Assembly (NCBI GenBank): GCA_017647245.1
Contig: JAGCKY010000137.1
Span: forward strand, 1 to 5,631
Direction of reading: 5' to 3'
Source of the DNA: Elusimicrobiaceae bacterium
Lineage (GTDB): Bacteria > Elusimicrobiota > Elusimicrobia > Elusimicrobiales > Elusimicrobiaceae
DNA: 5,631 bases
Shown piece by piece: positions 1 to 2,106 of this stretch. The notes beneath the pieces were generated by a model. The model was not told where the DNA came from. It ran no database searches and saw only the letters and a list, made by a program, of their open reading frames with translations. Positions within the stretch are counted from its first letter, which is position 1. Each line of letters opens with the position of its first letter. The position numbers were made by a program, and so were the translations under genes.

Positions 1-161
1 ACTAATAGCTCAATAAGCGTAAATGCTTTTGTTTTTGTCGTCATTGCGTGCGTGGACACGGAATCCAGGTTTTTATAAAAGTTGTGTTTCCTTATAAACG
101 GACTGGATCCCGGATCCATGTCCGGGATGACGGCATAATTTGGTATTTCCTTTTTATTCAT
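1..161 (-). CDS. Type IV prepilin-like protein, N-terminal fragment (runs off left edge)
   Basis: The last visible residues read TKAFTLIELLV, the class III (type IV prepilin) signal. Cleavage would fall between Ala46 and Phe47, and the conserved Glu sits at mature position 5. After cleavage and N-methylation by prepilin peptidase, such proteins assemble into a pilus or pseudopilus through this hydrophobic helix. I chose the start at 159-161 because AAGGAG lies 5 nt upstream, whereas the in-frame ATG at 42-44 has no Shine-Dalgarno. From 161 the frame is open for 53 codons and starts MNKKEIPNYAVIPD. This gives a 46-residue leader instead of the usual 6-10. The extra length is almost all encoded by the palindromic repeat at 39-132, which covers about residues 10-41. 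A third in-frame ATG at 192-194 lacks a ribosome site. Pilin identity is firm. The start is an inference, and the mature domain lies outside the window. Confidence 0.8.
   Translation of the reverse strand, partial: MNKKEIPNYAVIPDMDPGSSPFIRKHNFYKNLDSVSTHAMTTKTKAFTLIELL
39..132. repeat. Imperfect palindromic element, about 94 bp, inside the pilin leader
   Basis: The ends are inverted: CGTCAT at 39-44 and ATGACG at 127-132. The outer 30-nt arms (39-68 and 103-132) match as inverted repeats at about 22 of 30 positions. The right arm holds a perfect hairpin, ATCCCGGA (107-114) and TCCGGGAT (121-128), around a 6-nt loop. The middle (about 69-102) is AT-rich. This is the general form of small dispersed palindromes of the GTCATCCCGGA...TCCGGGATGAC kind seen in many bacterial genomes. 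It encodes no protein of its own, but the minus-strand frame through it is open and joined to the pilin. Its end supplies the ATG at 42-44. Exact borders are uncertain and could extend to about 150. Confidence 0.7.
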
Positions 162-189
162 AACCTCTCCTTTTGTTTTCTTTTTATTC
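150..189. repeat. Short A/T-rich direct repeats around the left pilin start
   Basis: CTTTTTATTC occurs at 150-159 and again at 180-189. CTTTTGTTTT occurs at 170-179 and again at 26-35, beyond the first palindromic element. On the minus strand each palindromic element ends ...ATGACG and is followed shortly by AAAACAAAAG. This hints that leader sequence was duplicated when the elements arrived. The motifs are short and A-rich, so chance is possible. Confidence 0.3.
164..172 (-). promoter_or_regulatory. Strong ribosome binding site for the left pilin
   Basis: On the minus strand AAGGAG (167-172) is followed by AGGTT and then ATG at 161-159, a near-ideal 5-nt spacing. It is the best Shine-Dalgarno upstream of this pilin, and the reason for preferring the long leader over the internal ATG at 44. 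Confidence 0.7.
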
Positions 190-270
190 GTCATCCCGCA
201 GGGTCCTTGTGCGGGATATAAGGTTGTTCTTTCTCCGGCACAATCCGCACAGAAACCTTGCGCGATGACG
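189..270. repeat. Second palindromic element, in the 5' leader of the left pilin
   Basis: The element is bounded by inverted CGTCATC (189-195) and GATGACG (264-270), the same termini as the element at 39-132. It has a perfect 8-bp hairpin, ATCCCGCA (193-200) with TGCGGGAT (210-217), loop 9 nt. Further internal pairings are AAGGTT (220-225) with AACCTT (254-259), and TCTCCGGC (232-239) with GCCGGAGA (273-280) just beyond the right end. The strong hairpin is at the left end here and at the right end in the other copy, so the two copies are in opposite orientation. It lies between the predicted promoter and the ribosome site, so it would be transcribed as structured leader RNA. A regulatory role is possible but not shown. 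Confidence 0.6.
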
Positions 271-293: not shown

Positions 294-321
294 ATCGTAC
301 CAAAAAAAAAAAACAAGTCAA
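294..321 (-). promoter_or_regulatory. Sigma70-type promoter for the left pilin gene
   Basis: On the minus strand the -35 box is TTGACT (316-321, 5 of 6 to consensus) and the -10 box is TACGAT (294-299, 4 of 6), separated by 16 nt. The spacer contains an unbroken run of 12 T (302-313). Transcription would begin near 287 and give a leader of about 125 nt, most of it the palindromic element at 189-270. The position, just downstream of the terminator of the preceding gene and upstream of the next pilin, supports a real promoter. It has not been tested. Confidence 0.55.
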
Positions 322-411: not shown

Positions 412-2106
412 TTATGAAACCGTGGCGCTACCCCAAGACGAGCAGGTTTTACCGCTCCAACTGTTGCAAACTGACGTAGATAATAAATTTCCTTTTTCGT
501 CGTACATATATTTGCTGCCGCTGCTGTAAGAGGTGCAGGTTGTACCGTCAAAAGACCCGCATTTATATTCCCCGGTCACATTACCGTACGCATCGTATGT
601 ATAATCTTTGCTCTCGTCGCTGACGGTATACGCGGTGCATACCCCTTGACTGTTTACATTACTGCCGCAGGTGCGTACGGAAGTAATGTTTTTGGCGGCG
701 TCATACGTGTAATCGGTATTATCGCTTGTGGAATAAGACGTGCACGCGCCGCCTGCACCCACGGTGGCACATTTGCGTTGCGCCGAAACATTGCCGTCGG
801 TATCGTATTGATAATTAAAATTCGGTTTTGTGTAGTTGGTGGTCGGACCGTACGCGGTACAATTTCTTCCTTCAAAGGAAGTACATTGTTTTTCGGAAAC
901 CAAAACACCGTCCTCATAGGTATAATCTACGCTTGCTTCATTAGCCGCATAAGCGGTGCAAATGCCGTCGCTGTCAATGCTGGCGCAACTACGGGTGCTG
1001 ATGATATTGCCGTCATCGTCATAAGTATAATCATTATTTTGCGAACTGGCCCATTGTGCACAGGTACTTCCGTTAAAAACTTCACAATTTCGTTCAATGA
1101 TATCTTTGCCCGTGGCATCATATACATGAAAGACTCCGCTTTCATATTCCGCGCAATCCCCGTTGCTGTAAAATTGTTTGCAAGAAATGACAATTTGATT
1201 TTTATCTTCGTCGTACAAATAGGACGTACCGTTTCCGTATGACGCACAAGAACCGTCTGTATTGGTGCCGGTACATGCGCCCGTCTTGGCAATGACTTCG
1301 CCTTTGTTGTTGTACAAATACGTGCGCGATGCGGTGCAATTGTTGCCGTTTACTTTACAAACCGTTTCTTGACGGATTCTACCGTTTGCATCGTACGTTG
1401 CGTTTACACATACCGTTGAGGTACTGTTAGACTGACAAATTTTTTCCGTGTAGGTTTTGTTTTCGTTGTAAGTTCCTTCGCACGTATAGCCCGCGTTTAC
1501 GTGTACTTCGCGCGCGCAGGTTTTATTGCAAGGATAATTTTCGCAAGCTTGCCACCCGGTAGGCGCATTGGCCATTTCACGTGCCAAACTGGCAGGCGTA
1601 CCGTTGCCGCTACCCTCTAAAACATAGGTATCATATCCGTCGGTTAAACTGCCCGCAATCGGCTCTCCGTTTAACACTTCACATAATTGTTGAGCACGGG
1701 CGCTGTTTTTGAGGGCTTCGCAATGTATTTCGCCGGAAAAATTTTCGCTGTTGGCCAAATAGACAATGTAATTGTTTTTCAAATTATTTTCGGTTAATTT
1801 AATATAGGAGTAATCCGGCTCCTCGCTTAACGTAATAGTTGTTCCGTTCTCCAGCGTGGCGCTGATCCCGCTGGGACTACCCGGCAGTTCTATATTTAAA
1901 GTAGATAAATCTTTGGTGTAGGTGCCGCTGGTGAGATAATAGGATTCTTGCGCGGCCGCTAAAGTTTTACCCAAGGGCATTAAACGCGAATAACGACTCT
2001 GGTCCACGGCGTTTTGATACTGCGGAAGTGCCATAGCCACCAACACGCCGATTATCAACAACACCACCAACAGTTCTATAAGCGTAAACGCTTTTTTATT
2101 TTGCAT
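412..2106 (-). CDS. Large prepilin-like protein with C-terminal Cys-paired YD-like repeat array
   Basis: The 564-residue protein starts MQNKKA with FTLIELLVVLLIIG next, a class III prepilin signal with a 6-residue leader, Ala at -1 and Glu at +5. It would be cleaved by prepilin peptidase and anchored through the hydrophobic helix at about residues 7-27. ALPQYQ and residues to about 180 resemble the alpha/beta head of short type IV pilins, which usually total 130-180 residues. Residues 188-233 form a Cys-rich neck (Cys188, 193, 197, 209, 224, 233). From 238 to the end are ten tandem YD-like units. There are 28 Cys in all, suggesting an exported, disulfide-stabilised protein. It begins 8 nt after the amylase stop, so translation may be coupled. 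Likely a surface-exposed minor pilin or adhesin carried on a pilin base. The head is established by family resemblance, and the role of the repeats is not known. Confidence 0.85.
   Translation of the reverse strand: MQNKKAFTLIELLVVLLIIGVLVAMALPQYQNAVDQSRYSRLMPLGKTLAAAQESYYLTSGTYTKDLSTLNIELPGSPSGISATLENGTTITLSEEPDYSYIKLTENNLKNNYIVYLANSENFSGEIHCEALKNSARAQQLCEVLNGEPIAGSLTDGYDTYVLEGSGNGTPASLAREMANAPTGWQACENYPCNKTCAREVHVNAGYTCEGTYNENKTYTEKICQSNSTSTVCVNATYDANGRIRQETVCKVNGNNCTASRTYLYNNKGEVIAKTGACTGTNTDGSCASYGNGTSYLYDEDKNQIVISCKQFYSNGDCAEYESGVFHVYDATGKDIIERNCEVFNGSTCAQWASSQNNDYTYDDDGNIISTRSCASIDSDGICTAYAANEASVDYTYEDGVLVSEKQCTSFEGRNCTAYGPTTNYTKPNFNYQYDTDGNVSAQRKCATVGAGGACTSYSTSDNTDYTYDAAKNITSVRTCGSNVNSQGVCTAYTVSDESKDYTYDAYGNVTGEYKCGSFDGTTCTSYSSGSKYMYDEKGNLLSTSVCNSWSGKTCSSWGSATVS
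415..1395 (-). repeat. Ten tandem YD-like, two-Cys protein repeats in the large pilin
   Basis: Units begin at Tyr 238, 265, 298, 329, 362, 397, 434, 468, 504 and 535, a period of 27-37 residues. The consensus is Y-D-x-x-G-N, then about six variable residues, a first Cys 11-13 residues after the Tyr, a second Cys 7-10 residues later, then T/S-x-Y/W and a polar linker ending in Y-T-Y. All ten units keep both Cys. The YTYDAYGN core resembles RHS/YD or YwqK/MORN_2-type repeats, but the invariant Cys pair is not a feature of those families. At the nucleotide level the units differ widely through silent changes, so the duplications look old. Confidence 0.8.

Follow-up and report, generated by a model that had tools for sequence, protein, structure and literature searches.

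A REP-like palindromic dimer in frame in a predicted type IV pilin leader, and the recurrence of leader repeats within its genus

A palindromic dimer at positions 39-132 of a 5,631-nt stretch of DNA (the window, meaning the whole stretch that was analysed) lies in frame within a type IV pilin leader of 46 codons. It is probably tolerated there, as the leader is predicted to be cut away. In-frame leader repeats recur in other pilins and in other species of the genus; they comprise several element types, occupy three codon phases and can be nested. In-frame palindromic elements are already known from Rickettsia, and the novelty here is the restriction to a removable leader.

Genome setting and pilin-type genes

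The window is contig C131 of a 1.12-Mb genome that is 78% complete (the home genome), and the neighbours of the pilin gene with the element are genes for a 564-residue pilin, an alpha-amylase-family protein and gyrA. Two MAGs, Reindeer_2_mag_101 (uncultured Elusimicrobiales) and RUG14242 (uncultured Elusimicrobium), match its gyrA at 95% identity over the best segment, and many of the next matches belong to Elusimicrobiaceae from ruminant guts. Matches to the FTLIELLV motif numbered 119 in the home genome and 91 in a second species (G054), and were present in 66 of the 66 genus genomes searched (range 5 to 211). The genomes G004 and G020 held 211 and 208 matches in ~1.5 and ~1.7 Mb, respectively, an extreme number of pilin-type genes. 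One prepilin peptidase domain (PF01478) was found in each of the six genomes tested, the copy of the home genome lying on contig G000:C146. As a separate observation, the 564-residue pilin (412-2106, minus strand) shows by eye about ten tandem YD-like, Cys-containing repeats after N_methyl; Pfam reported N_methyl only.

Structure of the leader and its start codon

The features of the pilin gene that carries the element are as follows.

1..23, minus strand: mature pilin start FTLIELL, Phe codon 23-21 (PF07963 on full-length relatives)
24..161, minus strand: prepilin leader of 46 codons, MNKKEIPNYAVIPDMDPGSSPFIRKHNFYKNLDSVSTHAMTTKTKA (translation and Shine-Dalgarno (SD) scan)
39..132, no strand assigned: dimer of CGTC-tagged hairpins, tags outward, inside the leader (genome matches, unit scan and fold)
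40-64 and 107-131, no strand assigned: hairpin units of the element (unit scan)
42..44, minus strand: internal ATG made by the ATGAC end of the element, no SD found (SD scan)
167..173, minus strand: Shine-Dalgarno sequence AAAGGAG upstream of ATG 161 (SD scan)
189..270, minus strand: second palindromic dimer with CGTC tags, located in the 5' untranslated region (strict unit 190-217; second half by eye)
294..321, minus strand: promoter-like site TTGACTTG-T12-GG-TACGAT, common to most pilins of the home genome

As the earlier note had described, the frame from ATG 161 crosses the element with no stop codon; on the minus strand the ATG lies at 161-159, its ribosome site is placed here at 173-167, and the frame stays open to the Phe codon at 23-21. 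The junction reads KA/FTLIELL, at which cleavage is predicted, and N_methyl (PF07963) scored above cut-off at residues 43-67 of the public proteins P0003 and P0005, with Gly/Ala before Phe+1 and Glu+5. A further in-frame ATG at 194 has a weaker SD (AAGGA); because a stop codon stands a few codons ahead of the common ATG in the paralogues on contigs C19, C14 and C152, ATG 161 is taken as the shared start. Prepilin leaders span 6-26 residues in general and about 15-30 in type IVb according to excerpts of PMC4471445, so that 46 codons exceed the general range, in agreement with the unusual length noted earlier. According to PMC4471445 and PMC10191384 (both in excerpt), leaders of 6-26 residues remain cytoplasmic, and prepilin peptidase cleaves them off behind a Gly or Ala.

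Only 23 bases of the mature pilin fall inside the window before it ends. Window bases 1-141 match the end of contig C119 (L198 1-141) without a difference. That contig encodes a full mature pilin and probably holds the remainder of the gene, and the public protein P0005 spans the junction without a break. An exact contig-end overlap of 141 bases is of the size expected from an assembler's longest k-mer.

The second dimer lies downstream of the promoter-like site. A site of the form TTGAC-T(10-15)-(-10 box) preceded 77 of the 96 home-genome pilins with enough upstream DNA, with a spacer of 12 T in 64 of these 77, and 53 of the 91 pilins of G054. Because the homopolymer sits between -35 and -10, the arrangement suggests slippage-type phase variation of the whole pilin repertoire.

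REP-like build of the element

Each half of the element is a CGTCAT-tagged hairpin with a CCAG tail, CCA being present in both halves. Positions 38-133 folded at -38.8 kcal/mol, whereas shuffled sequences averaged -20.4 (z -5.2) and none of 200 did as well. The home genome held 45 matches to 39-132, of which a few are one place on both strands and some are partial. Hairpin units were defined strictly, including a stem of at least 8 starting with A-T pairs and a GTCAT beginning, and were counted in both species.

The earlier note had likened the element to Rickettsia palindromic elements. This holds in that in-frame elements are known there, but the closest named group is that of the CGTC-tagged REPs, to which excerpts of PMC3733652 assign Neisseria dRS3 and Rickettsia RPE-4 and RPE-6. 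Units resemble this group, as described in those excerpts, in their tags (CGTC in 77 and TGTC in 13 of 92 home-genome units, together 90/92; 76 and 14 of 115 in G054, where, as in the home genome, units had to begin GTCAT), in the stem of at least 8 starting from AT and in the mostly outward (HH) orientation of tags (26 of 37 home-genome and 28 of 45 G054 neighbour pairs within 100 nt). The CCA tail of the group is shared less consistently, by 49/92 units in the home genome, where it is the commonest tail, and by 26/115 in G054. The units differ in the loop, which is usually 4-5 nt in CGTC-REPs, with exceptions given in the same source, and here mostly 6 or 9 nt (6 nt in 53/92 and 9 nt in 32/92 in the home genome; 9 nt in 80/115 and 5 nt in 23/115 in G054). 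We therefore call the element CGTC-tagged and REP-like and not a formal member. A second difference from that account is that intragenic copies were found here only in pilin leaders.

The Rfam family Wolbachia sRNA46 was considered for the element and rejected, as its score of 27.9 bits was below the gathering threshold of 65.3. CGTC-tagged REPs are characterised by the lack of a dedicated transposase; here the Y1_Tnp profile (PF01797) gave four matches spread over three of six genomes tested and none in the other three, including the home genome (78% complete).

Long leaders recur and are largely built from repeats

In the home genome 107 distinct pilin starts were read and four at contig edges excluded. 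The remaining 103 comprised 81 short leaders with an SD-supported ATG and 22 long leaders with a far in-frame SD-supported ATG, and none with neither. Nine of the 22 lacked every type of start codon in the 14 codons nearest the cleavage site, one had only GTG/TTG nearby, and 12, the window gene included, had a near ATG with no detectable SD. In G054, a genome chosen because of its element matches, 64 of 91 leaders were short and 27 long; an SD supported 24 of the long ones, 22 of which lacked a near start codon, and two of the three with a weak SD were 16 codons long and showed no clear repeat. Among 54 pilins drawn from various other genomes, some of them chosen for element matches, there were 33 short leaders, eight long with SD, four long with weak SD, six at contig edges and three that could not be assigned. 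The longest leaders reached 64 codons (L010). The suggestion that the arrangement could be a general way for a repeat to live in pilins is borne out as far as recurrence among 103 home-genome and 91 G054 pilins goes, but many copies probably reflect movement of leaders and not independent insertions.

Under a slightly different leader rule, 55 long leaders (23 from the home genome, 22 from G054 and 10 from elsewhere) were collected, of which 42 contained at least one GTCAT-type hairpin (up to two mismatches). The other 13 had no recognisable GTCAT hairpin, and some of these had another repeat type. Tags on the sense side fell in phase 0, 1 and 2 in 21, 17 and 3 cases, respectively, and reverse tags in phase 0 and 1 in 11 and 10 cases, so that peptides with no resemblance to one another, among them VIPDMDPGSS, RHPELVSGSS and SSSRSVSVRD, arise from a single repeat type. 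Nesting was seen where the 20-codon GRHPEFISGSNKQG (L252, L270) corresponds to a 39-codon GRHPEL...ISGSNKQG (L250, L265), in frame both times. Because a second GFT or AFTLI copy is kept ahead of the insert in several leaders, insertion probably took place into a pre-existing pilin start. The leaders of L202 and L310 look built from a different repeat (SPLAGEDTRRAGDG and CPPCGESTLKGGKG, respectively), so leaders may also accept repeats without the CGTC tag.

Distribution of hairpin units

Units were counted in 544 kb of the home genome, a sample in which pilin contigs are over-represented, and in 846 kb of G054 (including one whole 398-kb contig); about 85% of this DNA lies in ORFs of at least 150 codons. 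The home-genome DNA contained 92 units, compared with four in the reversed control. Pilin leaders accounted for 18 of the 92, pilin 5' untranslated regions for 49, other intergenic DNA for 19 and ORFs for six, the letters of these six being unlike the family by eye. For G054 the count was 115 against six, with 22 in pilin leaders, 50 in pilin 5' untranslated regions, 40 in other intergenic DNA and three in ORFs. Of the last three, one is a further pilin leader with the deviant motif FPLIELLV and two lie in start-extended or spurious ORFs, one of these two upstream of what we take, from its motif, to be uppS. Units within other ORFs were few, and either chance-like or in start-extended frames. 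Together with the hairpins in 42 of 55 long leaders, this scarcity supports the proposal that the leader is a tolerant landing site.

Copies near pilins in random frames interrupted by stops, an outcome that would have spoken against this proposal, occurred in none of the 103 home-genome and 91 G054 pilins: leader copies were in frame, and the many further copies close to pilins that fall in 5' untranslated regions (49 of 92 home-genome units) are outside the frame.

Selection on leaders and comparison with and without the insert

Over 25 equal-length leader pairs, 60 synonymous and 207 non-synonymous codon differences were counted, whereas the 25 mature codons that follow in these pairs gave 290 and 26; pairs within families are non-independent, so these counts overstate the number of events, and the leaders were selected as open. 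The synonymous share in leaders was 0.22, against 0.29 under random substitution. As this share is about neutral, the leaders show no sign of amino-acid constraint, yet their frame is open and the adjoining mature start is conserved. The sense frame was open in 55 of 55 leaders (by selection); of the two alternative sense frames, one was open in 10 of the 55 and the other in 3. A comparison of indels in multiples of three gave alignment noise, alike for leaders and untranslated regions.

The comparison of pilins with and without the element that the earlier note had called for is afforded by L020, with a 57-codon leader, and L074, which has the 5-codon leader MKNRA and no insert. The two are sisters on the tree of pilin bodies (support 100/95) and are 86% identical over 540 nt of the mature part, and 180 nt upstream align at 42%. 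In this closest paralogue pair the gene without the insert does not have the long leader.

Near-identical leaders in front of diverged pilins

Three further pilins of the home genome carry the window leader at the same site, and contig C16 ends within one more. Across the four genes, identity is 94-97% in the leaders, 77-87% over the 75 nt of mature start that follow and 48-73% in the bodies. The genes must accordingly be older than the leader DNA in front of them, and leaders probably also move between pilin genes. Among the 66 genus genomes, none but the home genome matched the window leader at E 1e-6. A search with the leader protein found none in a collection of named genomes, from which records of the home genome or a very near one may be absent. 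Matches to the leader region came from seven public protein clusters, of which five show 92-95% identity, P0009 81% and P0010, a related leader type, 64%; P0004, P0005 and P0007 match genes seen in the analysed DNA, and P0006, P0008 and P0009 place the window leader in front of other bodies.

Leader families were mapped on a tree of 107 bodies, consisting of home-genome pilins and three public proteins, whose bootstrap had not settled. The label 'otherlong' includes the contig-edge L029, which has no meaning, and family B was drawn by regular expression. Family A required six changes for seven rows, five of them forced by supported branches (shuffled mean 6.8). Changes and rows were equal for B (six), C (four), D and E (two each), and family F alone formed one group; leader families are thus scattered over the tree. 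All labels together showed a little more clustering than their shuffled counterparts (27 changes against 29.3, with 3 of 200 shuffles as low), as did the label 'short' (22 against 26.4).

Discussion

We propose that the residues of the element are translated as leader and would then be cut off by prepilin peptidase. The insertion is likely tolerated because these residues never reach the mature pilin. In-frame insertions would drift neutrally, those out of frame or bearing stops would be lost through destruction of the pilin, and insertions elsewhere in genes would be removed by selection. Recombination may later carry repeat-bearing leaders to further pilin genes, and this would account for near-identical leaders before diverged bodies.

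Other readings differ in how well they fit. If translation began at ATG 44, created by the ATGAC end, the element would lie in the 5' untranslated region and the leader would have a normal seven residues. ATG 44 is in frame, REPs at an N-terminus are often misannotated extragenic copies according to a warning in the excerpts of PMC3733652, and 49 of 92 home-genome units do lie in pilin 5' untranslated regions. The scan found no SD for it, AAAGGAG precedes ATG 161 and the frame is kept open while amino acids drift. Such a start is not available to those long leaders in which no start codon lies nearby, nine of 22 in the home genome and 22 of the 24 with SD support in G054. We regard initiation at ATG 44 as very unlikely, and the earlier note's own counter-case, a start at ATG 44 only, was not upheld. 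Still harder to credit is an assembly artefact fusing repeats to pilin starts: the window does end in a 141-base repeat overlap, but the same arrangement occurs within long contigs of other species (398 kb, G054:C1; 50 kb, G024:C25) and the same leader is found in public proteins.

Two further readings grant that the leader is long and dispute that the repeat is a passenger. The long leader or RNA hairpin could have been selected as a regulatory device that holds back translation or times membrane insertion, as might fit the strong fold, the crowding of units in pilin 5' untranslated regions and the sharing of leaders by several genes. The near-neutral proportion of amino-acid changes, the free variation of element type, phase and leader length, and the 81 of 103 pilins without a long leader make this unlikely in our judgement. 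Somewhat less improbable, if still not favoured, is that repeats are kept as recombination sites for pilin shuffling, with exchange breakpoints at the leader. The scatter of leader families on the body tree (family A, near its shuffled mean) and the fall in identity from leader to mature start agree with it; most pilins, however, have no leader element, the conserved promoter and FTLIE stretches alone could carry exchange, and the labels as a whole are slightly more clustered than shuffles. The reading we prefer thus remains that of a repeat tolerated in a leader predicted to be removed.

In-frame REPs and RPEs are on record in Rickettsia and others (PMC3733652, PMC10969869, in excerpt). The elements described in excerpts of PMC10969869 are palindromic, of several types and in frame in working genes; those here resemble them, with read-through in a functional gene being predicted from the open frames and the conserved mature start. 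There the elements lie in unrelated genes, whereas here they lie in one gene family and in a part predicted to be removed. Compared with the longer-leader prepilins of the excerpted PMC4471445, the leaders here likewise are hydrophilic and precede a class III cleavage site, but they reach up to 64 codons and are largely built from repeats, with 81 of 103 home-genome pilins being short. The strings 'Elusimicrob' and 'pilin' do not occur in the main text of PMC3733652, and no report of repeats in pilin leaders or of Elusimicrobium pilins was found in the open PMC literature.

Gene callers, and rules based on leader length, may mislead for genes with such leaders. Since one genome contains pilins that carry the insertion alongside others that do not, the tolerance of in-frame palindromic elements becomes directly testable. 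The arrangement also offers an explanation for how selfish repeats persist within genes, in that the repeat sits in the one stretch of the protein that is predicted to be removed. More tentatively, and in our view less likely than not, leaders may be exchangeable cassettes: REP-like dimers would colonise them because they are discarded, the repeats would then supply the common DNA through which promoter-leader units are shuffled across ~100 pilin bodies in a recombining repertoire, and selfish repeats and pilin diversification would feed each other. The findings point to leaders that can move as modules within very large families of pilins.
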